From contig NZ_CP060632.1 in assembly GCF_014337155.1 (NCBI RefSeq), forward strand, positions 2,301,001-2,365,000: a DNA stretch of 64,000 bases, written 5' to 3'. The first letter of the stretch is position 1, and each line of letters starts with the position of its first letter. The notes under the pieces are model-generated. The model did not search any database. It saw only the letters and a list, made by a program, of their open reading frames with translations, and was not told where the DNA came from. This document shows, piece by piece, positions 22,367-60,032 of this stretch. The translations under genes were made by a program, and so were the position numbers. Source of the stretch: Wujia chipingensis. GTDB taxonomy: Bacteria > Bacillota > Clostridia > Lachnospirales > Lachnospiraceae.

Positions 22367-23167
22367 TTATGGTCTCTGACCAAGCGCTCCCTCTAATGTC
22401 AGTGTCTCACCGCTCATATACTTGAAATCCGGTGACGCAAGCTGTACACAGACACGTCCGATTTCCTTTTCTACATCCCCAAAATGTCCCATCGGCGGTG
22501 TGTGGACATTTGCCTTAAATGCATCCGGATATGCTTTCTCGAAATTCTCAAGCTGTGCAGTCCATGCAAGCGGACATACCACATTCGCATTGATGCCATC
22601 GGCAGCCCACTCGGTTGCTGCGACTCTCGTCAGTCCACGGATGCCTTCCTTCGCTGCAGCGTAAGCGCACTGTCCGAAGTTTCCGAACAAGCCTGCGCCC
22701 GATGCAAAATTGATCACGGAGCCCTTCGTCTCCTTCAGATATGGATAGCATGCTTTCATATAATAAAATGCTGCATACAATCCGGAATAAATCGCAAGGT
22801 CAAACTGTGCGGTTGTATGATCGGCGATCGTCACACCGGAAGCAGAAGCCTGCGCGTTGTTGATCAGTACATCAATTCTTCCAAATGTATCGATCGTCTG
22901 CTTTACAACATTTGCCACGACTGCCTCGTTGTCAGAGCCGGCGCTTACATCTGCCTGTACCGGAAGCACCTTCACGCCATATTTGCGTTCGATTTCTTCT
23001 TTTGCATCGTCAAGTTTCTGCACGTTCCGTCCGGTCAGGACAAGGTTTGCCCCTTCCTTCGCATAGGCAGTTGCGATTCCATATCCAATCGAACCGCAGC
23101 TTCCGTCGCTCAAAACCGCGCGTCCGCCACCTGTGATAATTGCTACTTTACCTTCTAAAAATCCCAT
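22367..23167 (-). CDS. SDR family oxidoreductase with extended glycine motif
   Basis: Protein of 266 residues, a classical short-chain dehydrogenase. IITGGGRAVLSDGSC then GSIGYGIATAYAKEG is the cofactor loop, with about eight extra residues inside the usual TGxxxGxG. Other marks are LINNAQAS, the Ser in NFASGAG and YAAAK with Tyr-x3-Lys. LVLTGRN after strand 2 suggests NADP use. The substrate is unknown. Start at ATG 23167 after AAAGGGG; the upstream open frame to 23215 has no ribosome site. Confidence 0.88.
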   Translation of the reverse strand: MGFLEGKVAIITGGGRAVLSDGSCGSIGYGIATAYAKEGANLVLTGRNVQKLDDAKEEIERKYGVKVLPVQADVSAGSDNEAVVANVVKQTIDTFGRIDVLINNAQASASGVTIADHTTAQFDLAIYSGLYAAFYYMKACYPYLKETKGSVINFASGAGLFGNFGQCAYAAAKEGIRGLTRVAATEWAADGINANVVCPLAWTAQLENFEKAYPDAFKANVHTPPMGHFGDVEKEIGRVCVQLASPDFKYMSGETLTLEGALGQRP

Positions 23168-46393: not shown

Positions 46394-47257
46394 ATGTATA
46401 TCAATACCGGTTACTTAAATCATTCTCATCAGGATTTCAAGGACAAGAGCCGTCCGCTCGTCGTCGGGAGCTGTGGCATTTATCGTCTGACCGATGATCC
46501 GAAGATGCCGACCTACCGTCCAAAGGGACGTTTGGATTATCAAATTATCTATATCTCGTCCGGGCTTGGACATTTTCATTTCGATAAACCGGAAAATGAG
46601 ACGATCGTCCCTGCCGGAAATATGGTGTTGTTCCGTCCAAAGGAATTACAGAAATACGAATATTATGGCGAAGATAAAACCGAAGTTTACTGGATTCACT
46701 TCACGGGTTCCGATGTAAAAAATATTCTGCGAAGCTATGGTCTGCAAGATAACCAGAGAGTTTTCCCCGTCGGTTCCTCGCTCGAGTACGAGCGGCTGTT
46801 CAAACAGATCATACAGGAATTGCAGCGTTGTCAGGATCACTATGAGGAAATGCTCGCCCTGCTGCTTCGCCATCTGCTTATTGTGTTTCAACGGGAACTC
46901 ACGCGCGAGCACATTCTGAAAAACGAATATCTGGATCGGGAGATGCACAGTGCTGTTACCTATTTCAATGAGAATTACAATCAGGATATCAGTATAGAAA
47001 ATTACGCCCAGACAAGGGGCATGAGTGTGAGCTGGTTTATCCGGAACTTCAAGAAATACACCGGCATGACACCGATGCAGTTTATCGTATCGTTGCGCGT
47101 CAACAATGCGCAGATTCTTCTGGAACAGACCAATTATTCCATCTACGAGATTGCGAAGATCGTCGGATACGATGACCAGCTCTACTTCAGCCGGCTGTTT
47201 CGCAAACAAAAAGGAGTCTCTCCTTCCCAATACAGAAAGAGACAACCCCTTGCCTAA
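46394..47257 (+). CDS. AraC family transcriptional regulator
   Basis: Protein of 287 residues. The N-terminal cupin-like sensor domain (IYISSGLGHFHFDKPE, VLFRPKELQKYEYY, VYWIHFTGSD) is followed by the double helix-turn-helix: ISIENYAQTRGMSVSWFIRNFKKYTG-type first motif, then YSIYEIAKIVGYDDQLYFSR. It lies head to head with lacZ, so it probably activates the lac operon in response to lactose or a related sugar. AGGAGGTG precedes the ATG. Confidence 0.92.
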   Translation: MYINTGYLNHSHQDFKDKSRPLVVGSCGIYRLTDDPKMPTYRPKGRLDYQIIYISSGLGHFHFDKPENETIVPAGNMVLFRPKELQKYEYYGEDKTEVYWIHFTGSDVKNILRSYGLQDNQRVFPVGSSLEYERLFKQIIQELQRCQDHYEEMLALLLRHLLIVFQRELTREHILKNEYLDREMHSAVTYFNENYNQDISIENYAQTRGMSVSWFIRNFKKYTGMTPMQFIVSLRVNNAQILLEQTNYSIYEIAKIVGYDDQLYFSRLFRKQKGVSPSQYRKRQPLA

Positions 47258-47264
47258 TTTCAGA

Positions 47265-47879
47265 TTACAGTTTCTTCAGGAAATGCTCCCGGTTCGGGTA
47301 TTCCTCCCGGAATGCCCGCTTTGCGGCCTCCTGCAGCAATGCAAATTCCTTCTCCATATGCAACATGTGCGGCGCGGTAAATGCAATCGCACTAATCTGT
47401 TCTGCGATTTTCTTTGCCACGCCCTCATCGGATAACTGCCCCATACCGAAAACGATCGACGTAAAGCCTCTGCCGTTTCTGCTTACATCAATAAACTTCC
47501 GGAATGCATGCGTCATCTCAGACAGCAGAATTTCCTGTTCGGCTTCCGGCCGCTTGTCTGCATCAAACAGGCACAGTCCGGAGACGGTCTCAACTGCCTG
47601 CTTGCGCTTCTGTCCACCGATATCATTTGCCCCACTCTCCGCAATGTATTTGAGCTGCATCAGATACCCGACGAATGCATCGGTCTTCGGTTTGCGCTTT
47701 CCGTAACGCGCCACCCAGAGTTTCTTTATAAACGCCGCATCCACTTCCTCCGGCTTTCCCGCAGAATGATTTGCTATTTCACTTGCGTTCACAGTTTTAT
47801 CTGCATTCGTATTCAATATGTCCAGCCGCTTCTCCGCGTCCATTTCGTTGTAAAATTGCTCTAACCATGTCTCCTGCAT
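47265..47879 (-). CDS. Uncharacterised cytoplasmic protein
   Basis: Protein of 204 residues, helical, no signal or membrane segment. Visible motifs are VDAAFIKKLWVARYGKRK, DAFVGYLMQLKYIAES and ISRNGRGF-like DVSRNGRGFTSIVFGMGQ. It resembles proteins I remember as DUF6553, but this is weak. It ends 7 bases from the end of the AraC gene, tail to tail, with no terminator between them. GGAG precedes the ATG. Confidence 0.6.
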   Translation of the reverse strand: MQETWLEQFYNEMDAEKRLDILNTNADKTVNASEIANHSAGKPEEVDAAFIKKLWVARYGKRKPKTDAFVGYLMQLKYIAESGANDIGGQKRKQAVETVSGLCLFDADKRPEAEQEILLSEMTHAFRKFIDVSRNGRGFTSIVFGMGQLSDEGVAKKIAEQISAIAFTAPHMLHMEKEFALLQEAAKRAFREEYPNREHFLKKL

Positions 47880-47924
47880 AGCTGTTCTCCGTTTCCTTTA
47901 TACTGCCAATCAACATCTGCATCT

Positions 47925-48025
47925 ATTTATCCACGCATCCATTCATCCGTGCGTCCATTCATCCACGCATTTAGTCTTCAGCGCATTCAGTCATACATCC
48001 ATTCATTCATCCGTGCATTCATTTT
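47925..48025. repeat. Degenerate 12-bp simple repeat
   Basis: About eight loose copies of ATTCATCCACGC or ATTCATCCGTGC lie in tandem or near-tandem. The stretch separates the 47265-47879 gene from the sugar-binding protein gene. Confidence 0.65.
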
Positions 48026-48051
48026 CTGCATAATTCCAGTTGCAGCCTTCC

Positions 48052-49095
48052 TTACTTTCCAAGGAATGTATCTACGTTGTCCCCATCAACCTTACGATAT
48101 TGTGACATATAATAGATGTCATCCTCCAGTCCATACCCTTCGATATCGCTTCCCTGAAACAATGCGACCGTCAAAAGTGCGATCATCCTCGCCTGATCTT
48201 CCTTATCGTTATAGACCGTTCCCTGCATCGTACCATGTTCCACTGCCTCCAATGCATCGGTCAGACCATCAATGCCGAAAATAATCGGCCGCTCCGCCTG
48301 CCTGTAGCCGGCATTTTTGTACGCCTCAACAGCCCCCAGCGCCATCTCATCATTGTTCGATAAAATCAACTCAATCTCAGAACCATACTGATCGATCAAC
48401 TGACTCACCCGGTTTTCCGCCTGTGCGCGGTTCCAGTCTGCAAACTGATAACTGAGTTTTTCCAGTTCTATTTCATTCTCAATCATCGTCTTAACCGACA
48501 GGTCTGTCCGGCTGATTGCATCCTGATGTCCGGCTTCCCCTTCTAAAAGCACATATTGGATCTTCCCATCGCCATTCTTATCGACCTCCGGGTGATTCTT
48601 AATATATTCCGCTGCGATCTCGCCCTGCATCTCACCGGACTGTGCTGCATCACAGCCAACATAGAAAAGCTTATCCCACTGAAGAAGATCCTCCTGCACC
48701 GGTTCCCGGTTAAAGAAAATAACCGGAATATCATTCTGCCGCGCCATACGGACAATATTCGACGGGGCTGTCCGGTCAACCAGATTCACGCACAAAACAT
48801 CACATCCGGCGTCAATCATTTCCTCAACGATCTCGTCCTGCTCCTGCTGGTCATTGTCGCCGCTTCTTACAGATACGATTACCTTCATCGTATTGCTCTC
48901 TTTTGCTTTCAGATTACTTTTTATTATATCTGTCATTGCATTGATAAACGGGTCGTCCGGTGTATATGTCACGACACCAACACGCAACATATGATCGGCT
49001 TTTGTGTCCTGCTTTCCGCAGCCTGTCAGTGAAATCAAAAATACCCACACGCACAACCATGCTATCATATTCTTCTTTACGTCTCTTCTACTCAT
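48052..49095 (-). CDS. Galactose/glucose-binding lipoprotein (MglB-like, canonical order)
   Basis: Lipoprotein of 347 residues, lipobox SLTGC with Cys26. It is a type I periplasmic binding protein in normal order: RVGVVTYTPDDPFINAM, then VLCVNLVDRTAP, IPVIFFNREP, LFYVGCDAAQSGEMQG, the calcium loop DKNGDGKIQ, LEGEAGHQDAISRT, ILSNNDEMALGAVEA and IFGIDGLTDAL. All match E. coli MglB. Its ATG overlaps the previous stop by 8 bases and it has no strong ribosome site, so translation is coupled. As last gene of a kinase operon with no transporter genes it is likely a sensor for the kinase rather than a transport protein. Confidence 0.92.
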   Translation of the reverse strand: MSRRDVKKNMIAWLCVWVFLISLTGCGKQDTKADHMLRVGVVTYTPDDPFINAMTDIIKSNLKAKESNTMKVIVSVRSGDNDQQEQDEIVEEMIDAGCDVLCVNLVDRTAPSNIVRMARQNDIPVIFFNREPVQEDLLQWDKLFYVGCDAAQSGEMQGEIAAEYIKNHPEVDKNGDGKIQYVLLEGEAGHQDAISRTDLSVKTMIENEIELEKLSYQFADWNRAQAENRVSQLIDQYGSEIELILSNNDEMALGAVEAYKNAGYRQAERPIIFGIDGLTDALEAVEHGTMQGTVYNDKEDQARMIALLTVALFQGSDIEGYGLEDDIYYMSQYRKVDGDNVDTFLGK

Positions 49096-50062
49096 ACGAA
49101 TACAAAAACCTTTCTATCTCATCCGAGAACAAATCTTCTTTATAAATAACTTTTACTTCCTTCTCATGGCTCTTCAACGTGTAAAATGTCCGTGTCAGTT
49201 CTTTTTCAATTTCCTCGACACTCTCATAACCAATCCCGTATCCATCCGGGATTACCAGACACTGCACCTGTCCTGCATCGAGCAGTGCAATCGATTTCAT
49301 GCTCGTACCAACGCCAAAGATCTTCGCATCCTTATACACACCATTTTCCGCGTGTTCACCCAGCGTATCCAAGGCTTGTGTATCCATTACCACCATATAA
49401 TCGACGGACTCCTGTGCATCAACAACCGCACAGATATCCGTGTCACTTTCTTCATTATACTCCCATGCAATCTCGCAATCCTGTTTCTCCAATGCGTCCT
49501 TCAGTCCCTGGATACGATTCACACTTGCCTCCGTCTTGGATCGTCCGGCAATCACGCCAATCCTTTTTCCTTTCAGCCCATCTTCGTCCTGCGTAATAAG
49601 CTGCGTGCCAAGTGTGTATCCAATCTGGTAATTATCCGGTTTGACTGTCGCATACCCGCTTGCCTCTGGCTGTTCACCGGTATAAACATCTTCTGTCAGA
49701 AGTACAAATGGCTTCTTCTGCTCGCCGAGCCAGTCTAACATATCCTTCGTATCTGTGCCTGGTGCCGGGCACAGGATAAATGCATCCACATCGTTTTCCA
49801 GCTGTTCCTCGATCAGCTCCCGCTCGTCCTGCGCGCTTACAATATCATCCGTATTACAGATAATCAGATGAAGATTATTGGTTTTCGCAGACTGCTTTAA
49901 TCCATTGATTACACCCTCCCACCGGGTGTCACCGGAATTCTGCAGGATAACCGCTACACGCTTTTGAGCGACATCCTCCTGGAAGATTTTATGTATGAAG
50001 AAGGCTGCGAGGACAATCAGAATAAGCTCTGCAATGAGAAATGTTAATTTATCTCGTTTCAT
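49088..50062 (-). CDS. Membrane-anchored sugar-binding protein, putative kinase co-sensor
   Basis: Protein of 324 residues. A single N-terminal helix (FLIAELILIVLAAFFIH) without a lipobox anchors a type I periplasmic binding domain: RVAVILQNSGDTRWEGVING, DAFILCPAPGTD, KPFVLLTEDVY, GYTLGTQLITQDE, KRIGVIAGRSKTEASVNRIQ and VIPDGYGIGYESVEEI. This layout matches XylFII, the anchored xylose-binding partner of a LytS-type kinase in clostridia. It overlaps the kinase gene by 14 bases. It most likely presents sugar to the kinase. Start at ATG 50062 after GGGAGG. Confidence 0.88.
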   Translation of the reverse strand: MKRDKLTFLIAELILIVLAAFFIHKIFQEDVAQKRVAVILQNSGDTRWEGVINGLKQSAKTNNLHLIICNTDDIVSAQDERELIEEQLENDVDAFILCPAPGTDTKDMLDWLGEQKKPFVLLTEDVYTGEQPEASGYATVKPDNYQIGYTLGTQLITQDEDGLKGKRIGVIAGRSKTEASVNRIQGLKDALEKQDCEIAWEYNEESDTDICAVVDAQESVDYMVVMDTQALDTLGEHAENGVYKDAKIFGVGTSMKSIALLDAGQVQCLVIPDGYGIGYESVEEIEKELTRTFYTLKSHEKEVKVIYKEDLFSDEIERFLYSYE

Positions 50063-51947
50063 CTGTAGCCCTCCCATTTCTATAGCTCTGCGCCTCGAGC
50101 TGCTGCCGGTTCTCCTCCGTAAACGGAATTGCCGGAATGTGTATCACAATCTTCGTTCCTTCATCAGGCTCACTGTAAACAAGAAGACCATATTCGTTAC
50201 CAAACATCAACTGAATCCGGTTGTGCACATTGATGAGTCCTACCCCGGAACCATGCTTTGGTACTTTATTGTTATCCTTGAGGACATTTTCAACCGTTTC
50301 CTCACTCATACCCATGCCATTATCCTCGACCGAGAGATAGATATCATCTCCCTTTTTCTCACCGCTTACCGTAATCATTCCGCCGTCATCCTCGTCCATA
50401 TTTCCAACCCCATAATAGATTGCATTTTCCAAGATCGGCTGTACGATGAGCTTGACCGTACAATAATCGTTGACTTCCTCGTCGATATCAAACTTCACCT
50501 GGAACCGCTCCTTATAGCGAACAAGCTGGATATTCATATAGCTTCGGCTGTGCTGCAGCTCATCCGCGATCCGGATTACGGTTCTGCCCTTTGACAGACT
50601 GATCCGAAGCAGTCTGGCAAGCTCCGAAATCATGAGAACCGCTTCCTTATTCTTCTGTGCCTCAACCATCCATGTAATCGACTCGAGTGTATTATATAAG
50701 AAATGTGGATTGATCTGACTTTGCAGTGCATCCATCTCACTCTTTCTGCGTTCAGTCTGTTCCCGGATAATCTCCTGCATCAGATTCTCTATCTGTTCAT
50801 AGGACTTCTTGACCGAATATCCGAGATGCCTGATCTCCGAGGAACCGCCAATATAGATATCCGTATCCCCGCCTGTCTCATATGCCTTGACTGACTCATT
50901 CAGCCGCAGAATCGGACGTGAAATCTTTCTTGATATGATCCGGTTTACTTCGAGCAGCATCATCATCAAAATCAGAATGGCTGTGATAATATAATACCGG
51001 AACCGGTTGATATTTGCTGTCTGTACACGCTCCGGAATCACACCGACCAGCTTCCAGCCGGTATATGCCACACTACTCACAACAACATTTCCCGGTCTAC
51101 CGTTCAGCGAAAGCTCATACGTTCCGTCTTCTAATTGCGATGTCATCTCACAGTTTTCCGAAAAATATCCACGGTCAATATCTGCACGTCTCGGATGGTA
51201 AATCATCTGTCCATCCCGGCTGCAAAGGTAATAATAAATACCGTTTGAGGACTCATTGATCCGCTTCATCGTATTTGATATCACAGAATATTTCATATCT
51301 ACCAGCAGTACACCGCTGCGCGGTTTTTCCCCATCGTTAATATCCACGGAACGGCTGAGGGAAATAACCCAGTAGTACCGGTATGTGCCATCCTCAAACA
51401 GATTCTGAATATGCGGCAGGGAGAAATGCACATTCTCAATCTCCTCCTCTGCGTTTGTATACCAGTCCTGTTCGGATGCCTTTACGCCCTTCTTGCGTTC
51501 CGAAACCGGCTCCGCCATAAGCTGTGCACCATTGCTGTCATACAGCGCCATGCTTTGAACCTTGTCTGTGTTGATTTCATAAAGCAGACTGAACTGGCGG
51601 TTAAAATCATCACTGGAGATATCATTTTCCTGAATGATATTATAATTCACTGCATTCATTATCTGACGGACATTCAACAACTCCGCATCCAGCTTATCCA
51701 CCGTGCTTTCGACCATACTCTCTGCATTCGACACAGCCGTCTGCTTCATCGCCATTTTAAAACGATTATACAAAAGCAGGCCAATTGTAATTGTCGTAAT
51801 CAACGTAAGTGCAGTAAGAACCGCCATAATGATTGACTGGATATCCAGTCCGATAAATCTCCTATGATGTGTCCAGCCCTGCTTTTTCATCCACTTTTGA
51901 AGCCAGCTTTCCTTCTTTTGCAATTTTCCCATCTCTCTTGTTTTCAA
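50049..51947 (-). CDS. Sensor histidine kinase, YesM/LytS type
   Basis: Protein of 632 residues. A first membrane helix (residues 38-60) precedes an extracytoplasmic dCache-like domain and a second helix near 315-335. HAMP follows (ISRKISRPILRLNESVKAYE), then the His_kinase domain with QINPHFLYNTLES, where His is the phosphorylated residue. The ATPase has ENAIYYGVG, DNGMGM and GSGVGLINVHNRI. Start is TTG 51947, with GGGGAAA upstream; the in-frame ATG six codons later has no site. It probably works with the response regulator 21 bases upstream and the two binding proteins downstream. Confidence 0.93.
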   Translation of the reverse strand: MKTREMGKLQKKESWLQKWMKKQGWTHHRRFIGLDIQSIIMAVLTALTLITTITIGLLLYNRFKMAMKQTAVSNAESMVESTVDKLDAELLNVRQIMNAVNYNIIQENDISSDDFNRQFSLLYEINTDKVQSMALYDSNGAQLMAEPVSERKKGVKASEQDWYTNAEEEIENVHFSLPHIQNLFEDGTYRYYWVISLSRSVDINDGEKPRSGVLLVDMKYSVISNTMKRINESSNGIYYYLCSRDGQMIYHPRRADIDRGYFSENCEMTSQLEDGTYELSLNGRPGNVVVSSVAYTGWKLVGVIPERVQTANINRFRYYIITAILILMMMLLEVNRIISRKISRPILRLNESVKAYETGGDTDIYIGGSSEIRHLGYSVKKSYEQIENLMQEIIREQTERRKSEMDALQSQINPHFLYNTLESITWMVEAQKNKEAVLMISELARLLRISLSKGRTVIRIADELQHSRSYMNIQLVRYKERFQVKFDIDEEVNDYCTVKLIVQPILENAIYYGVGNMDEDDGGMITVSGEKKGDDIYLSVEDNGMGMSEETVENVLKDNNKVPKHGSGVGLINVHNRIQLMFGNEYGLLVYSEPDEGTKIVIHIPAIPFTEENRQQLEAQSYRNGRATDETR

Positions 51948-51968
51948 TCCATTTCCCCTATTTTTTTC

Positions 51969-53573
51969 TTACTGATTCGTATGCTGTGCCCGGTACTTCG
52001 ACGGTGACACGCCAAATCGTTTCTTGAATACATAACTGAAATAATTCGCATCCAAATATCCCACTCGCTCAGCGATCTGATAGCTCTTCTCATTTGTTTC
52101 CAGTATCAGTGTTGCCGCATGATCCATCCGGTAATCCGTCAGATACGTAATAAACGCTTTTCCTGTCTCCTTCTTGAACACCGACGAAAAATACGAATTC
52201 GATACCCCGAGCACAGAGCAGATCGTGTCCAATGACAAATCCGGCTCCATATAGCGCTCACGTACAAGATTCTGCGCATCGGTCACAAGCCGTCTCGATG
52301 TACTGTTTCGAGCATTTTTCAACTGTTCCCCAAGCTCTACGGAAACTCCCTGCATCCATGCCGTAAGTGTACTCTCATCCATCTGCGGAATCGTCTCGTA
52401 AGGATTCTGGATTCCGTGCAGATAATCATTAAAATCAAGGAAATTATTTGCACAAAACCTGTAAAATGCTCCCACCATCTCCATGATTGCAAGATTATAC
52501 TGACTGACCGTCTGTGCATTGCTGTGCAGCTTTTCTATTTCGTTTACAACGACCTTCTCAATCTCTTCCTTTAACCCTAAATGAATGGCTTTGAACAAAT
52601 CATGCATTCTTGTATCTTCCGGCTGCAAGGTCGTTTCCTGTTCCTTCGGTGCAAGCTCGGCAATATTGATCGCGCGTTTCGTTCCATACAGTACCCTGTA
52701 TGATACTGCCTCTCTGGCACCATCGTAAGACGTTTTAATATTCGCCATATTGTCGCATACACGACCGATACCTGCCGTAACCACCGCCCCCATCACACGA
52801 TAAGCCCATTTGCAGAATCGATCACACGAATCCGTAAACTGCACAATCGCGTCCTCCGATGAAAGCTCTATCAGCATCAGTGTATTGCCAAGATAAGAGA
52901 ATACCCGGCTCTTCCACTCTGTCGCAAGCCGTTCCTTGATCTCATGTTCAACAGACATCGCAAGCAGCAACGGATTCATACCGTCCGGCACATGATGTTC
53001 CGAAGTGTGGAAAATTGCACATCCATAATATGGTCCTTTCATATCAATCTGATACGCGGCAAAAAATTTCCCGCAGTTTTCTTCTGTCACCCGTCCCTCA
53101 ATGAGAGATACAAAGAAGTTATTCTGCAGTACCGGAAGTGCTGCATTGAAATAATTCTCCAGACGTGTTACATTCAGTTTTTCTTCCCGTTCCCGGTCCA
53201 GTGTGTCCTTCAGACGTTTCAGGCAATCAGACAGTTCCGTTGCATTTATCGGTTTCAGCATATATTCCTCAACCTCCAGATGCACCGCTTCCTTTGCATA
53301 TTCAAACTCATCAAACCCGGTAAAAATAATGATGTGAATGTTCTGGTAATCCCGGTTTAAACGACGGGATAACTCCAATCCATCCATATATGGCATCTTG
53401 ATATCTGTAATTACGACATCCGGTTGAAGCTTCTCTACCAGTTCAAGTGCTTTCACTCCGTTGGTTGCGTTTCCAACGACGGTAAATCCAAGGTCGTCCC
53501 ATTGTATGCGTTGTTCAATTACTTCGATGACTTCTGCTTCGTCATCCACCAAAAGCACTTTATATTTTTCCAT
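51969..53573 (-). CDS. Response regulator, YesN/AraC type
   Basis: Protein of 534 residues. The receiver domain has LLVDDEAEVIE and the phosphorylated Asp in VVITDIKMPYMDG, with Lys in YMLKPINATE. A middle regulatory region of about 250 residues is followed by a C-terminal AraC double helix-turn-helix (LDTICSVLGVSNSYFSSVF, YQIAERVGYLDANYFSYVF). It is expected to activate sugar transport genes, mglBAC being the nearest. Start at ATG 53573; the upstream GTG lies inside the ribosome site. Its leader contains a perfect 21-bp hairpin. Confidence 0.94.
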   Translation of the reverse strand: MEKYKVLLVDDEAEVIEVIEQRIQWDDLGFTVVGNATNGVKALELVEKLQPDVVITDIKMPYMDGLELSRRLNRDYQNIHIIIFTGFDEFEYAKEAVHLEVEEYMLKPINATELSDCLKRLKDTLDREREEKLNVTRLENYFNAALPVLQNNFFVSLIEGRVTEENCGKFFAAYQIDMKGPYYGCAIFHTSEHHVPDGMNPLLLAMSVEHEIKERLATEWKSRVFSYLGNTLMLIELSSEDAIVQFTDSCDRFCKWAYRVMGAVVTAGIGRVCDNMANIKTSYDGAREAVSYRVLYGTKRAINIAELAPKEQETTLQPEDTRMHDLFKAIHLGLKEEIEKVVVNEIEKLHSNAQTVSQYNLAIMEMVGAFYRFCANNFLDFNDYLHGIQNPYETIPQMDESTLTAWMQGVSVELGEQLKNARNSTSRRLVTDAQNLVRERYMEPDLSLDTICSVLGVSNSYFSSVFKKETGKAFITYLTDYRMDHAATLILETNEKSYQIAERVGYLDANYFSYVFKKRFGVSPSKYRAQHTNQ

Positions 53574-53597
53574 GTTGCACCCCACTTGTTATCGCCT

Positions 53598-53653
53598 GCC
53601 GGGTAGTTCGGAAGCATCTGGTCTTTGGTTAGGATGCTTCCGAACTACCCGGC
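53598..53653. promoter_or_regulatory. Perfect 21-bp hairpin upstream of the response regulator
   Basis: Left arm 53598-53618 and right arm 53633-53653 are exactly complementary over 21 bases (beginning GCCGGGTAGTTCGGAAGC) around a 14-base loop. It ends 25 bases before the response regulator start. There is no T-run on the minus strand, so it is not a normal terminator for incoming transcripts. It could be an operator, an mRNA-stabilising stem or an element end. Confidence 0.85.
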
Positions 53654-53754
53654 AATTCTTATTGTTCTTTGTTGTTTTATTGTCCTTATTATACCAAAGT
53701 TATCACTATAAAGATACCTAAATATCTAGCTGGTTGCTTCCTTCTATTGCTCAA

Positions 53755-54003
53755 TTGGGGATTTTTCCTCTATTTGGGGAATTTGCTCCAACTGACTTGT
53801 TTCCTACTCTTGTTCCATTGGGGATTTTTCCTCTATTTCGAGAATTTGCTCCAACCAGCTTGCTTCCTGCTCTTGTTCCATTGGGGGAGTTCCCCTCATT
53901 TTCAAGTTTTTGCTCCAACTGACTTGTTTCCTACTCCTGCCTTATTGGGGGATTTTCCCTCATTTTCAAGTTTTTACTCCAACCAGCTTACTTCCTACTC
54001 CAA
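53755..54003. repeat. 63-bp tandem array 2 (four units)
   Basis: Units start at 53755, 53818, 53881 and 53945 (periods 63, 63, 64). Each carries TTGGGGATTTTTCC or a variant, a middle part ending GCTCCAAC, then ACTTGTTTCCTACTC. The same order and period as array 1 at 27461 show common origin. The hairpin pairing is weaker here. No coding start fits. Confidence 0.88.
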
Positions 54004-54013
54004 TTCATATATT

Positions 54014-54064
54014 AAAAACGCAAAATAAAACCAGTATATATGTGGCACTGTTTTATTGCGTTTT
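54014..54064. terminator. Long AT-rich hairpin between array 2 and mglC
   Basis: AAAACGCAAAATAAAACCAG pairs with the complementary arm ending TTTTATTGCGTTTT. The stem is long but has mismatches. It may back up the mglC terminator. Confidence 0.6.
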
Positions 54065-54086
54065 GACATTATATACAATATACAGG

Positions 54087-54125
54087 AAAAGCCGCCTCTC
54101 CATCCTCTTCGATAGACAAGGCGAC
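54087..54125 (-). terminator. mglBAC operon terminator
   Basis: GTCGCCT pairs with AGGCGGC (one G-U pair) and is followed by TTTTCC on the minus strand, 37 bases past the mglC stop. Confidence 0.7.
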
Positions 54126-54161
54126 CCTTCCTTCGTTTACAACTTTATTTGATTCCTTTGA

Positions 54162-55814
54162 TTACTTCTTCTGAACATACTTCAGACAGTCAAGTGTTAC
54201 AGCTGCAAGGATGATAATACCTTCGAAGATAAACTGAAGGTTTGTATCAATACCAAGGATTGTCAGAGAGTATGTAAGGGATGTGAAGATCAGTACACCA
54301 GTTACAACACCGGAGATCTTACCGATACCACCTGTGAAGGATACACCACCTACTACGCAGGCTGCAATCGCATCCATATCCCAGCCTTGTCCATATGCGG
54401 CACTACCGGATCCAACCATACGGTTACACTCAAGCCATGAACCAAATCCATAAAGGATACCTGCTAAGATGAATGCTCCCATTGTTACCTTGAATACGGA
54501 AATACCAGATACAGAAGCTGCTTCCGGATTACCACCAACAGCGTAAAGGTTCTTACCAAATGTTGTCTTGTTCCAGATGAACCATACAACGATGATTGCT
54601 ACAACTGCCCAGATAATGATGGTTGGGAATCCACCAAGATTTGGAATAAACATGTTCGGAATGCTTGACTCGATTGCACCGAAGGATACACCCTTTGTTG
54701 CATATGTTACAAGTCCGAAGATAATCAGCATGTTCGCCATTGTCGAAATAAATGGATGCATCTTATACTTCGCCATGAAGAAACCGGCAATACTTGCAAA
54801 TACGGTTGTAAGTATGATACATGCAACAAGTGCAATAATTGCTCTGCCCGCTACCGGAATACCTGTAAAATCAAAGATATGTCCGAATACGCCACCGGTA
54901 TTTACACCGCTGTGCATGATGATAGTTGCGGTTACCATACCCATACCTACCATACGTCCGATGGAAAGGTCGGTACCTGTTAACAGAATCAGGCCGGCAA
55001 CACCAAGGGCTAAGAACATACGAGGCGAAGCCTGCTGCAAAATATTCAGGATATTTGTCAGTGTCAAAAGCTGTGTATGCTTTACAATCGGTGTGATGAT
55101 ACACAATGCAATAAAGATGAGTAAAATTACAATGTACAGACCATTCTTATACATAAACTGTGTTGTATTGAATGTGTATTTGTAGTTTTCTACCTTCTGT
55201 GCCTGCTTCTGTCCAAATGTATACTTAGACATACGGAGCAGATCGATCAAATGAAACTTATGTGCAAATGCATCGTGCTTTCTATCCTTGATTTCCTGCA
55301 ATTTAGACTCATGTGTCATCTGTGCATCGAACAGGCGGTTACGATATACATACTTCTCATCCTTGATTTCCTCAGAATCAGAAAGCTTTGCCAAAGCCTG
55401 CTCGTGCTCTGTCTTAATGGTTGCCACAATCTTGTCATAAGAGGCATTCTCTGCTGCCTTCTCTGCCTCACAGCTCGCAACTACCTTCTCATAGTAGTCA
55501 CTCTTGTAATGCTTGGAGAGATAGCTCTCTGCATCGGAAATGAGCTTGGATACCTTATCCTTATTTGCAGATTCTACAGATTTTGCTTTCTCTAAGTCCG
55601 CCTTATCCTTCGCAATAATCTTTGCTCTCTCTTCCTTTGTTAAATTCTTATCTTCCTTCGCAATTGCGATATGGTTCTTTAAGCTTCGAACCTTGTCAGA
55701 TCCATCTACACGAAGTGCATCGATCTGCTTCTGTATTTTTCCTACATATTCATCAATCGGTTTCAAAAGCGCTGCTTCCGCTTCTGCCGAAAGGATCATA
55801 CTTTTATCTGCCAT
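54162..55814 (-). CDS. mglC: Galactose ABC transporter permease MglC with long N-terminal extension
   Basis: Protein of 550 residues. The last 325 are a standard MglC/RbsC permease with 8-10 helices, including TGTDLSIGRMVG, KTTFGKNLYAVGGNPEAAS and VVGGVSFTGGIGKISG. The first ~223 residues are an unusual hydrophilic extension, very rich in K, E, A and D and predicted helical or coiled coil (DKADLEKAKSVESANKDKV, CEAEKAAENASYDKIVATIK). E. coli MglC lacks it (336 residues). It would lie in the cytoplasm before the first helix. Start at ATG 55814, with GGAG 8 bases upstream. The gene begins 18 bases after mglA. Confidence 0.93.
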   Translation of the reverse strand: MADKSMILSAEAEAALLKPIDEYVGKIQKQIDALRVDGSDKVRSLKNHIAIAKEDKNLTKEERAKIIAKDKADLEKAKSVESANKDKVSKLISDAESYLSKHYKSDYYEKVVASCEAEKAAENASYDKIVATIKTEHEQALAKLSDSEEIKDEKYVYRNRLFDAQMTHESKLQEIKDRKHDAFAHKFHLIDLLRMSKYTFGQKQAQKVENYKYTFNTTQFMYKNGLYIVILLIFIALCIITPIVKHTQLLTLTNILNILQQASPRMFLALGVAGLILLTGTDLSIGRMVGMGMVTATIIMHSGVNTGGVFGHIFDFTGIPVAGRAIIALVACIILTTVFASIAGFFMAKYKMHPFISTMANMLIIFGLVTYATKGVSFGAIESSIPNMFIPNLGGFPTIIIWAVVAIIVVWFIWNKTTFGKNLYAVGGNPEAASVSGISVFKVTMGAFILAGILYGFGSWLECNRMVGSGSAAYGQGWDMDAIAACVVGGVSFTGGIGKISGVVTGVLIFTSLTYSLTILGIDTNLQFIFEGIIILAAVTLDCLKYVQKK

Positions 55815-55832
55815 CGCCAAAACTCCTCTCTA

Positions 55833-57341
55833 TTACAAATATTTCGCACTAAGCTTTAATAATTCTTCCTGATTTGTCTCCTTCGTATTGACAATACCTG
55901 CCAGATGGCCATTCGACATAACGCCAATACGGTTTGTGATTCCGAGAATCTCCGGCATCTCAGAAGAAACAACAATAATTGTCTTACCCTGCTTTGCCAT
56001 GTTAATGATCAACTCGTAAATCTCATATTTTGCTCCAACATCAATACCTCTTGTCGGATCGTCCATCATAAAGATGTTCGGAGACCGCTCCAACCATTTA
56101 CCGAAGATTACCTTCTGCTGATTACCACCAGACAGATTTGCAATCATATCATCCGGTCCCATACATTTCGTATGCATGACCTTGATTTCCTCTGCGGTTG
56201 CCCGCACCATGTCATCATGTGAGAGTGCAAGTCCACTCTTATAATGATTCATATTTGCAATGGTTGTGTTAAATGTTATATCTGCTTTTAAGAACAGACC
56301 ATTTGCCTTACGCTCCTCTGTAATGAGGGCAAATCCATGATTCATCGCATCCTTCGGAGATGCAAAATTCATCATCTTACCATCATAGATAACGTTTCCG
56401 GCTGCTCTCGTACGCATACCAAATATCGTCTCAAGAAGCTCTGTACGACCTGCACCGACCAATCCATACAAACCAAATATCTCGCCTTTTTTCACATCGA
56501 AGGAGATATTCTGGAGCTTCGGTGCATATTTTGTTGAAAGGTTCTGCACGGAGAGAATCGTCTCTCCCGGTGTATTATCAACCGGCGGGAATCTGTTATC
56601 CAGAGAACGGCCTACCATGGCTGATATGAGTTCGTTCATGTTTGTATCTTTGCTGTCCTTCGTCATTACGAGGCTGCCATCCCGCAATACGGAAATCTGG
56701 TCGCAGATCTCGAAGATCTCGTCCATCTTATGGGAGATATAAATCAGGGAGATTCCCTGATCCTTAAGCTGACGCATCATCTTGAAGAGCTTTGCTACTT
56801 CCGGTGCTGTCAGGGATGAAGTCGGCTCATCAAGTACAATTACCTTTGAATTGTATGAAATTGCCTTCGCAATCTCACACATCTGACGCTTTGATACAGA
56901 CATCTTCTTCATCGGCTGCGTAAGGTTCACTGTGATTCCAAGCTTTCTGAACAGATCAGATGCTTCTTTTTTCATTCTGCCCTCATCGACCACACCAAGC
57001 GAATTCTTTGGGTATCGACCGAGGAACAAATTATCAATTACATTTCTTTCCAGACACTGATTTAATTCCTGATGTACCATTGCAACTCCGTTTTCGAGTG
57101 CATCCTTTGGTCCAGAGAAATTAACTTCCTTGCCATCTAATACGATTGTTCCTTCGTCCTTCTGATAGGTTCCGAAGAGACATTTCATCATTGTCGATTT
57201 TCCGGCACCATTCTCACCCATAAGTCCCATGATGGATCCTGGCTTCACATTCAAATCAATGTGGTTAAGAACCTTGTTTCTTCCGAATGATTTACTCATG
57301 CCATGAATCGATAAGATGTATTTATTCTTATCATCTGCCAT
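55833..57341 (-). CDS. mglA: Galactose ABC transporter ATP-binding protein MglA
   Basis: Protein of 502 residues with two ABC domains in tandem, the sugar-importer (CUT2) layout. First domain: GENGAGKST (42-50), VSKRQMCEIAKA in place of a full LSGGQ, and VIVLDEPTSSL. Second: GLVGAGRTELLE, a degenerate Walker A typical of this family, then LSGGNQQKVIFGKWL and MMDDPTRGIDVGAK. It powers MglC. Start at ATG 57341 with GGGAAG upstream. A terminator-like hairpin separates it from mglB. Confidence 0.95.
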   Translation of the reverse strand: MADDKNKYILSIHGMSKSFGRNKVLNHIDLNVKPGSIMGLMGENGAGKSTMMKCLFGTYQKDEGTIVLDGKEVNFSGPKDALENGVAMVHQELNQCLERNVIDNLFLGRYPKNSLGVVDEGRMKKEASDLFRKLGITVNLTQPMKKMSVSKRQMCEIAKAISYNSKVIVLDEPTSSLTAPEVAKLFKMMRQLKDQGISLIYISHKMDEIFEICDQISVLRDGSLVMTKDSKDTNMNELISAMVGRSLDNRFPPVDNTPGETILSVQNLSTKYAPKLQNISFDVKKGEIFGLYGLVGAGRTELLETIFGMRTRAAGNVIYDGKMMNFASPKDAMNHGFALITEERKANGLFLKADITFNTTIANMNHYKSGLALSHDDMVRATAEEIKVMHTKCMGPDDMIANLSGGNQQKVIFGKWLERSPNIFMMDDPTRGIDVGAKYEIYELIINMAKQGKTIIVVSSEMPEILGITNRIGVMSNGHLAGIVNTKETNQEELLKLSAKYL

Positions 57342-57360
57342 ATCTCTACTTCCCTTTCTT

Positions 57361-57400
57361 AAAAAGAAGGGTATCAATTTTAGGTGACACCCTTCTTTGG
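57361..57400 (-). terminator. Attenuator between mglB and mglA
   Basis: GAAGGGTGTC pairs with GATACCCTTC, followed by TTTTT on the minus strand, between the mglB stop and the mglA start. It would let most transcripts end after mglB, giving the usual excess of binding protein. Confidence 0.82.
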
Positions 57401-57433
57401 TTAAATCATTTACCGTTCGTTCAATCAGTTCTC

Positions 57434-58696
57434 TTACTTGTTAAGAATTGATGTGTAAGATGCTGCGTTGTCTGTCTTAACCATGTTGATTGCAAATGCA
57501 TCGTACTCACCAGGGTTACCAAGACGGTTTGTGATGTTAGACTCTGTCTGACCATCACCACCGATGTAATCAACCTTCAGGTTCAGAAGATCATCGTAAT
57601 TCTGAAGAAGTGGCTGGTATGTTGAGCTTAAGAAGTTATCAGAAGCGTTGTAGATATCAAGCCATACCTTCTTCTCTGGGCTCTTGCTAGCATCGAGCTG
57701 CTTAGAAACCTTGTCATAAACCTTTGTTGAATCTGTGAAATCCTGGTAGTTATCTGCTGTTACTGCAATGTTCAAAGCGTAGTAAGATCTCTCTTCTGCT
57801 GAGTATCTGTAATCAACACCCTCATCAAGCTTGTTACCAGCTTCATCTGCTGTACCGATACCTGTGTCTACATCTACGCCGTCAAGTGCGTTACGAAGAA
57901 CACGGAGTGTAAGGTAAGCCTGAACGTCTGCATGCTGTGAAATTGTTCCGCCGTAGCCTTCTGCGATAGCTGCTACTGCATCGCTGTTTGCATCGTATCC
58001 AAATGTAGGAACCTTGTTGTCCTTTGCCCAAGCGTTGAACATTGACATTCCCATACCATCGTTGTTAGAAACAACTACATCGATCTGATCACCGAAAGAA
58101 GCTGTCCATGTACCGATTGCGTTACCTGCTGTTGCTGCATCCCATGTAGCACCTGCAGAGTTCTTCATCTCCTGGGAAGCAAGCTCACGGATTGTGTATT
58201 TCTTTCCATCTACTTCCAGTGTTGCATCCTGAACAACCTTTGCAGATCCATCTACGTTTGTACCGGCTGGTGCTGAATCAACTGCGCCATTTGCATCAAC
58301 GCCTGTTCCAAGTGCGGAACGGACACCTCTTGTACGTGCGATGGAATCGTTATGTCCGATATCGCCGATTGCGAGTACATATCCGATTACGCCATCACCG
58401 TTACGGTCGATCGTTGCTGCATTCTTCTTGATGTAGTCAAGTACCATCTCACCCTGAAGCTCAGCACCCTGATTCGCATCGAAACCTACATAGTAAGTAT
58501 CTTTGTTAAAGTTAAGGGCTGTTTTGTCAAGCTCTCCTGTTGATGAGTTAGAAGGCTGACGGTTGTACCATACAAGCGGCTTATCCTTGTTTGCAACTCC
58601 GCTTGATGAAGAACCTCCACCTGATGATCCACATCCTACCATTGACAGTGCCATTGTTGCTGCTGCGATTACAGCTAAGATTTTTTTCTTCTTCAT
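57434..58696 (-). CDS. mglB: Galactose-binding lipoprotein MglB, circularly permuted
   Basis: Lipoprotein of 420 residues, lipobox SMVGC with Cys22 and a Gly/Ser linker. The mature part begins at PLVWYNRQPS (40-49), which matches the middle of E. coli MglB (VVFFNKEPS). It continues in order: YYVGFDANQGAELQGE, calcium loop DRNGDGVIG, IGDIGHNDSIARTRG, VVVSNNDGMGMSMFNAW and TFGYDANSDAV. After a linker near 325-342 the last 78 residues (VWLDIYNASDNFLSSTYQP, DGQTESNITNRL, YDAFAINMVKTDNAAS) match what is the N-terminus of E. coli MglB. All parts of the fold are present but rotated. As first gene of mglBAC it is the transport binding protein. GGAGG precedes the ATG. Confidence 0.93.
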   Translation of the reverse strand: MKKKKILAVIAAATMALSMVGCGSSGGGSSSSGVANKDKPLVWYNRQPSNSSTGELDKTALNFNKDTYYVGFDANQGAELQGEMVLDYIKKNAATIDRNGDGVIGYVLAIGDIGHNDSIARTRGVRSALGTGVDANGAVDSAPAGTNVDGSAKVVQDATLEVDGKKYTIRELASQEMKNSAGATWDAATAGNAIGTWTASFGDQIDVVVSNNDGMGMSMFNAWAKDNKVPTFGYDANSDAVAAIAEGYGGTISQHADVQAYLTLRVLRNALDGVDVDTGIGTADEAGNKLDEGVDYRYSAEERSYYALNIAVTADNYQDFTDSTKVYDKVSKQLDASKSPEKKVWLDIYNASDNFLSSTYQPLLQNYDDLLNLKVDYIGGDGQTESNITNRLGNPGEYDAFAINMVKTDNAASYTSILNK

Positions 58697-59003
58697 ACTC
58701 TTTCCTCCTATGAATGAAATACTTGTTGAAATGTTCCTTCGTACTTTTTGTTCATTTTGTACATTTTTTTTGAATCATTCCCTGTCTCATTGACTAAATT
58801 CATTATATTTGGAATGAGGTCCGGAAAGAATAGAATATTTTTGGATATATTAGCAATTTTTTTTGATTATATGAAATTTTTATATGAATTTTGACGAATC
58901 TGTCCGTGATCACCTCGAAATTGCACAAAAAATTTCGTTTTTCTCATGATTTTGAAGCATATTTGCCAACTTTTTTCGGATCACGTCTTTCTTCTATCGT
59001 ATT
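58697..59003 (-). promoter_or_regulatory. mglBAC promoter region
   Basis: The 307-base gap is AT-rich and holds no gene. On the minus strand TATAAT (58807-58802) is preceded by a weak -35 (TTCTTT at 17 bases), which suits an activator-dependent promoter. The adjacent YesN-type regulator is the obvious candidate. I find no clear repeat pair for it. Confidence 0.5.
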
Positions 59004-59957
59004 CTACATTTTTTTCATCTTATATTTTTTCCGCTGCCCCTGTATTTCTGTAAAGCCAAATGCCAGAACGCCGACCATACCAAACGCCATCATTTTGATA
59101 AGGCTTTCATAATAGATATCCATGTTGCCAGACCATCTCATAAGCTCCTTCGCATGTACAAAACAGCTTTGGAACGAAGAAGCTCTATAGTAGTAATCTG
59201 AAAGTTTAGACGCCTGTATCGCCATTGCCATGTCTACCCGGAATGCCAGATATAGCCATGCAGCTGATACCGCAACACACAACAGAAAACTTATGGTCGA
59301 CAGCTTTTCGCCTTTCCACTTATATCCATAGATAACCGCGACTCCCATCGCAAGCCCGGCATAGCTTGACACGAATCCAATGCGTGCGATCAGGAAAATC
59401 AACAGCGCACCCAGAACGCCACCACCAATCGCTCCGAGCAGACCGAGTGCATAATTTTCACGCACAACATAATCCTCTTCCTGGTTCAGTTTCAACGCAT
59501 ATTCCGTCATCTTCGCAGATTCCTCATTTAAAAAGGAATAGCCATCCTCCACCTGATAGACATTCGTTGGCCCCTGCACGCCCCTGGCATCACAATTATA
59601 ATATTGATATCGTTCAAATTGCGTGATCATACCTTCTATCAGATTCTTGATCAATTGCACGTTCTTTTTTGTGCCACCACGAACCGGAACATATACCGCA
59701 ATGCTAAATCCTTTCGGTATGATCCTGCCGCCGCTCGGAAGTACCGCGCGCATCGTTCCCCACACATCGACAGATGCTGGTGTCTGATCGTTGGAAACCG
59801 AAAATGCAACCATCATCATTTTTTTGCCGGAACCGGTACCCGGTTTCACGACATATGTATATCCCCGGTACACGCCATGCAGCTGGCTTCCCATTCCTGT
59901 CCGTGTTGCCTGCAGTTCCCCGGCTAATTTCGTTAAGATTCTTCTATTCGATGCCAT
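59004..59957 (-). CDS. Membrane protein of unknown function
   Basis: Protein of 317 residues. A soluble N-terminal half (ASNRRILTKLAGELQATRTG, YVVKPGTGSGKKMMMVAFSV, SIAVYVPVRGGTKKNVQLIK) is followed by four or five helices from about residue 180 (GLLGAIGGGVLGALLIFLIA, VSSYAGLAMGVAVIYGY) and a basic tail (RKKYKMKKM). Conserved-looking in style but I recognise no family. Start at ATG 59957 after GAGGAGG. Confidence 0.7.
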   Translation of the reverse strand: MASNRRILTKLAGELQATRTGMGSQLHGVYRGYTYVVKPGTGSGKKMMMVAFSVSNDQTPASVDVWGTMRAVLPSGGRIIPKGFSIAVYVPVRGGTKKNVQLIKNLIEGMITQFERYQYYNCDARGVQGPTNVYQVEDGYSFLNEESAKMTEYALKLNQEEDYVVRENYALGLLGAIGGGVLGALLIFLIARIGFVSSYAGLAMGVAVIYGYKWKGEKLSTISFLLCVAVSAAWLYLAFRVDMAMAIQASKLSDYYYRASSFQSCFVHAKELMRWSGNMDIYYESLIKMMAFGMVGVLAFGFTEIQGQRKKYKMKKM

Positions 59958-60032
59958 CCGGCAAATTCCTCCTCTACTTGACACTTACGTTTCATCATAT
60001 TTCCTTTTCACAGGGATAGCAAGTTTTATTTT

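Follow-up and report, generated by a model that had tools for sequence, protein, structure and literature searches.

A naturally circularly permuted MglB-type sugar-binding protein, a probable lipoprotein, linked to mglA and mglC, in the Wujia chipingensis genome

A stretch of 64,000 nucleotides of the Wujia chipingensis genome (contig NZ_CP060632.1, positions 2,301,001 to 2,365,000; the window) encodes an MglB-type sugar-binding protein whose parts stand in rotated order: the first three N-lobe strands of the fold sit at the C-terminus. Sequence comparisons and a structure model make it very likely that this protein is the substrate-binding protein, probably a lipoprotein, of an Mgl-type (CUT2) ATP-binding cassette (ABC) importer for glucose and/or galactose, and that it belongs to Type Ic (Cluster Bc), a subclass whose founding member is the Treponema pallidum protein Tp0684 (TpMglB-2). 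Four features are evident from sequence and model: the parts stand in permuted order, both show homology to MglB by profile, the sugar site and the greater part of the calcium site are conserved, and the gene is linked to those for MglA and MglC. The permutation itself is already known, in a group that the founding paper noted: according to the excerpts of that paper used here, the topology of Tp0684, circularly permuted relative to E. coli MglB, was published in 2016, D-glucose binding causes a conformational change, the names Type Ic and Cluster Bc were proposed there, and homologues that share the order fall into two groups, one of spirochaetes and one of mostly Gram-positive gut bacteria (PMC4990184). 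The present analysis confirms that a gut Bacillota genome encodes a two-lobed binding protein with this rare natural permutation, and adds the profile homology of the moved segment, its single clade and a linked permease extension.

How is the rotated order recognized? In a Pfam scan of the protein, PF13407 is found at residues 64-273 but covers profile positions 93-256 only, and is followed by PF18610 at residues 341-411, with all 71 of its 71 positions; the same partial PF13407 and C-terminal PF18610 occur in 4/4 scanned proteins from a search with Tp0684. PF18610 is among the signatures of substrate-binding proteins (SBPs) in the excerpted list of a 2022 survey (PMC9602780). The permuted core (residues 35-336) aligns to positions 106-330 of the E. 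coli MglB precursor, and the C-terminal 84 residues align to positions 25-96. When the canonical profile is doubled, the whole chain aligns to it in a single run (106-429, 311 columns, at default settings; 104-437, 321 columns, when the setting is permissive); hence the fold appears to have lost no segment, in line with the initial annotation. In normal order, by contrast, the canonical MglB equivalog NF011924 matches in two stretches with 89.2 bits and does not reach its cut-off of 420 bits. In the model, the moved segment forms a β-α-β-α-β-α unit. A sequential structural comparison with E. coli MglB was unable to show the permutation; the permuted crystal homologue and the profiles were relied on instead. 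The best solved match is Tp0684 (5jx2, E 2.7e-90, residues 36-418), to which the model is 43-44% identical over 355-365 aligned residues, nearly full-length and with matching N-termini. The proposed natural permutation that keeps the fold is thereby borne out, by the model's match to this structure and by the profile match of the moved piece to the MglB N-terminus. Chance is excluded: tblastn on genome contigs finds 443 stretches encoding a relative, and crystal structures have the same order. The best 80 of these 443, fetched as loci, all encode the protein in this order.

The mature protein was initially thought to begin at PLVWYNRQPS; this segment starts only at residue 40, behind a Gly/Ser-rich spacer, and the most likely mature start is Cys22. 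C22 is nearly invariant (at least 90%) in an alignment of 36 permuted proteins and is preceded by MVG. A Met at -3 is atypical for a lipobox; the lipidation of Cys22 is predicted from sequence. With Cys22 lipidated, the spacer that precedes strand 4 would tether the protein outside the membrane, the two lobes would close on a hexose, the closed form would deliver the hexose to MglC, and MglA would hydrolyse ATP. By the rotation, the chain ends, canonically at the start of strand 1, would have come to lie in the N-lobe loop that leads into strand 4. Tethering is raised as a possible reason favouring the permutation in the excerpts of PMC4990184. The initial annotation also suggested that the altered anchor point could affect docking on MglC.

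The sugar site is largely that of MglB. Of ten glucose-contacting residues of E. coli MglB, taken from the excerpts of PMC4990184, nine are identical in the permuted protein (N45, H115, D117, R121, W185, N212, D235, D353 and F355); the tenth, N256, is replaced by Q254, a change common to Tp0684. At the position of E. coli D14 the permuted protein keeps Asp (D353), whereas Tp0684 has Asn. Calcium-loop residues D97, N99 and D101 are also kept. With E. coli MglB the protein thus has the fold, the calcium-loop core and nine sugar residues in common; it differs in that the first ~80 mature residues of MglB are C-terminal, with an extra connection, and in being a probable lipoprotein, whereas E. coli MglB is free in the periplasm. 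With Tp0684 (PDB 5jx2, 6bgc, 6bgd) it has the permuted order, the connection and, by prediction, the lipoprotein nature in common; it differs in a longer insertion at about residues 132-155, and, viewed from the window side only, in adjoining a sensor-kinase set.

The permuted gene lies immediately upstream of mglA and then mglC (Table 1), which gives the double ATPase and BPD_transp_2 permease of a CUT2 importer. This order recurs: mglA follows the permuted gene in 79 of the 80 fetched loci, and mglC follows mglA in 74. The sequence ends within 71 bases in L029 and in four of the five loci with mglA and without mglC; in L059, 3.7 kb are left after a partial mglA, without mglC.

The moved segment is placed on the MglB N-terminus by profile comparison. 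With profiles of 36 permuted and 11 canonical sequences, it fits best, over the full length of the canonical profile, on residues 25-96 of the E. coli precursor (score 32.5, P 1.3e-4; next best elsewhere 13.4); none of 500 column shuffles reaches this score (best 26.3), and the reversed segment scores 12.9. With 401 permuted rows (23 after the program's redundancy filter) and 130 canonical rows, counted after removal of P0016 from the permuted and P0287 from the canonical set, the score rises to 40.3 (P 5.6e-6; 74 columns, segment columns 5-79 on 25-100; 0/500 shuffles, best 23.5).

Several observations weigh against the assignment as a glucose and/or galactose importer protein, and they concern its ligands, its role and the source of the moved piece. 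The E. coli calcium ligands Q142 and E205 correspond to G105 and D206 (the same changes are found in Tp0684), and the ten sugar residues cannot separate glucose from galactose, a specificity that sequence does not settle. A sensory role besides uptake is conceivable. That the protein might be mainly a sugar sensor or chemoreceptor, and not a transport SBP, is improbable, even though a response regulator and kinase lie downstream here and in 52 of the 63 loci that extend 3.5 kb or more past mglC (upstream in 4, neither arrangement in 7) and Tp0684 is discussed as a putative chemoreceptor in the excerpts of PMC4990184. Against this stand the position of the gene directly before mglA and mglC and the kinase gene's overlap with its own run of two canonical-order SBP genes (49088, 48052), of which the latter keeps all ten sugar residues. 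Two of four canonical mglBAC loci of Bacillota also have a kinase (33%) and a regulator (29-30%) near mglB; having a kinase nearby is therefore no peculiarity of the permuted operon, which speaks against a special link.

Did the C-terminal 80 residues instead come from a different gene and converge on the missing N-terminal unit? The excerpts of PMC4990184 leave such an origin open, and report that the final 100 residues of Tp0684 are only 13% identical to the initial 100 of E. coli MglB. The segment alone retrieves nothing relevant from NCBIfam (only a FliN match at E 0.14), and single-sequence comparisons are weak and partly mixed: the best score is 24.8, two templates labelled non-MglB, L101 (22.6, 20 columns) and L048 (21.6, 35 columns), rank above all but one of the 12 MglB templates, and the canonical relative encoded in the window reaches no more than 12.5, over 33 columns. 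L101, classed as non-MglB in this test, groups with canonical MglB in the tree described below. Such a graft is nonetheless highly unlikely given the 74-column profile match that none of 500 shuffles attains, the similar stretches DNF / DDTF and AINMV / AVNMV, and the finding that at least 60 columns in MglB N-terminal register are obtained in 8/12 MglB-type templates as against 0/15 other SBPs or repressors (longest 43). Most probably, the moved piece is the N-terminus of MglB, as opposed to a graft that has converged on it; its source could also have been another MglB-like paralogue. The duplication-and-trim route suggested initially is consistent with this homology. No full tandem fusion was found among the best 120 of 2595 matches to a doubled canonical MglB query (7998 candidates scored), the lengths of which are 350-412 residues, except for P0287 at 529 aa. 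P0287, a canonical MglB, has an exact internal repeat and P0016, a permuted one, an exact internal duplication; both are probably assembly products.

An unrelated domain at the C-terminus, in a protein that simply lacks the N-terminal strand, is exceedingly unlikely. This outcome, named beforehand as refuting the permutation, is itself refuted: although the last 80 residues go unmatched to MglB in standard sequential searches, the crystal structure of the homologue and the model's match to it show the piece completing the N-lobe, and the profile homology ties it to MglB. The chance of an assembly or frame artefact is negligible, since odd records do occur (the repeats in P0016 and P0287, a broken copy in L086) but 80 loci and the solved homologue structures with the same order refute it.

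In a tree of 75 core sequences (74 different), all 36 permuted proteins form one clade with support 100/100. It is joined (98/91) to a group (95/71) made up of L101 and the 27 canonical MglB-type rows. These two values are what the position of the clade depends on, and the tree has several very long outgroup branches. Inside the permuted clade, one branch holds 17 rows, the window and Bacillota loci (100/99), and the other 19 rows from the Tp0684 search, Treponema where named (89/82). A single origin of the permutation, in a common ancestor of the Bacillota and Treponema clades, is most likely; the tree reads most simply as one permutation with later transfer or descent.

PF18610 is present in 2/21 relatives, 3/291 genomes of the class, 11/200 of one other family and 36/299 of the nearest genome's family, and in 0/14 control genomes in each sample. 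The best 80 loci are mostly titled Lachnospiraceae, or genera placed there; those titled otherwise include an Enterococcus sp., a Bacteroidales and an Oscillospiraceae metagenome-assembled genome. L005, Eubacterium sp. MSJ-21, has a permuted protein 100% identical to that of the window and DNA 97.0-100% identical to 54001-59000 in 500-base pieces. In L086 (68-1743), an RbsB-like SBP open reading frame (ORF) runs out of frame into permuted mglB, of which the C-terminal two thirds are left as an ORF; judged by reading, this is an assembly chimera or a deletion between SBP genes.

Table 1. Features of the permuted mglB operon and the adjoining genes; positions refer to the window.
Feature	Position	Strand	Basis
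MglB-type sugar-binding protein in circularly permuted order (Type Ic / Cluster Bc; predicted lipoprotein), 420 aa	57434..58696 (including stop)	minus	ORF, Pfam, profile alignments, model
Signal peptide to Cys22 (residues 1-22), predicted lipoprotein	58631..58696	minus	sequence MKKKKILAVIAAATMALSMVGC; lipidation by prediction
MglB strand 4 to normal C-terminus, residues 35-325; calcium loop DRNGDG, NND motif, N45, H115, D117, R121, W185, N212, D235, Q254	57722..58594	minus	alignment to MglB, site comparison
New connection, residues 326-340, at the place of the 'fourth hinge' stretch of Tp0684; boundaries approximate	57677..57721	minus	36-row alignment, model, PMC4990184 (excerpts)
Moved N-terminal segment, residues 341-420, PF18610; D353/F355 = E. 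coli D14/F16	57437..57676	minus	Pfam, profile comparison, model
MglA-type double ATPase, 514 aa	55833..57377	minus	NF008215, E 1.4e-201, 670.5 bits (below equivalog cut-off 828)
MglC-type permease, 552 aa, residues 218-552 match MglC	54162..55820	minus	NF007014, E 8.6e-85, 285 bits (below equivalog cut-off 386)
N-terminal helical extension of MglC, residues 1-215	55176..55820	minus	no Pfam match; model
Response regulator with AraC-type helix-turn-helix	51969..53585	minus	domain scan
dCache sensor histidine kinase	50049..51947	minus	domain scan
Type I SBP-like protein (PF13407), hydrophobic N-terminus, probably membrane-anchored; 29-base overlap with kinase gene	49088..50077	minus	ORF, Pfam, NCBIfam
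Canonical-order MglB-like protein, lipobox-like N-terminus, ten sugar residues kept; probable sensor partner	48052..49095	minus	ORF, PF13407, NF011924

The linked MglC carries an addition of its own: NF007014 matches it only from residue 218. The model shows the preceding extension as a series of long helices that turn near residues 57-61 and 146-148; most of it has predicted local distance difference test (pLDDT) values of 78-91, in a model whose membrane part is poor and whose overall predicted template modelling score (pTM) is 0.43. Mean identity to the window protein in 33 rows is 59% in the extension versus 84% in the membrane part, and in-frame deletions remove residues 40-82 (L019, L028) or 132-166 (L041); they are centred near the turns, as expected for shortened hairpins. 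Among the 74 fetched loci with MglC, the match starts within extension residues 1-10 in 73; in L028 it starts at residue 51, although the N-terminus of this protein, too, is visible in the alignment. MglC lacks the extension in E. coli and in 4/4 Bacillota loci where it lies near canonical MglB. Across the 299 family genomes (by handles and settings the same draw as above; at most 10 candidates scored per genome), it is matched with E below 1e-50 in 35 of the 36 that have PF18610; in the 36th, G696, MglC is cut off, its match running right up to position 22491, where the contig stops. Canonical MglB-like proteins occur in 98/299 (NF011924, E at most 1e-40, none over the cut-off). Among the 263 genomes without PF18610 there is one weak match, in G702 (30%, residues 115-215, E 5.3e-5), which was rejected as an extension without a permuted SBP: on reading the ORFs of at least 200 aa, no permease-like ORF is found in 18 kb. 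Permuted SBP and extended permease were thus not found apart in this sample. Since the two genes adjoin, being inherited together could be enough to account for the association; that the two, with a ~215-residue, probably cytosolic, helical-hairpin extension, make up one distinct importer subclass, arisen together and mutually dependent, is a doubtful idea. If true, a tethered SBP would be coupled, for example, to a regulated or clustered permease. A full-text literature search on an N-terminal extension of the MglC permease in Lachnospiraceae found no paper.

The kinase, the regulator and two canonical-order SBPs (48052-53585, minus strand) form a likely sugar-sensing set adjoining the importer, and the overlap of the kinase and both SBP genes suggests that they probably share one transcript. 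The protein encoded at 48052-49095 belongs to the same superfamily as the permuted one but has the normal order, as initially annotated (PF13407 profile positions 1-256, NF011924 positions 12-329), is encoded with the histidine kinase and response regulator, and takes its place in the tree with canonical MglB. We infer that the permuted protein feeds the importer while its canonical relative informs the kinase. The window holds a permuted and a canonical SBP with nearly the same sugar site; the first seems to serve uptake and the second may serve sensing, and the pair lends itself to comparing the effect of chain order on tethering and docking. A possible functional analogue of the set, with a different kinase and sugar, is XylFII-LytS, a sensor SBP plus kinase; its entries 5xsj and 5xss appeared in the structure comparison. 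In L043, L053, L060 and L078, a canonical MglB-like gene (39-43% identical to the window's) lies upstream of the permuted one, not far downstream.

Rfam gives no match at the gathering threshold in 47000-60000, and promoter and terminator patterns in 53580-59010 are at or near chance (14 vs 14.1 and 6 vs 3.7, respectively). Between mglC and the response-regulator gene, 53734-54000 holds a 64-bp tandem repeat of 4.2 copies, where the blastn alignment to L005 breaks into several overlapping pieces. Upstream of the operon, 59004-59984 (minus strand) is a 326-aa ORF with hydrophobic stretches and without a Pfam match; the DNA at 59501-60000 is 66% identical to L005, far more divergent than the operon.
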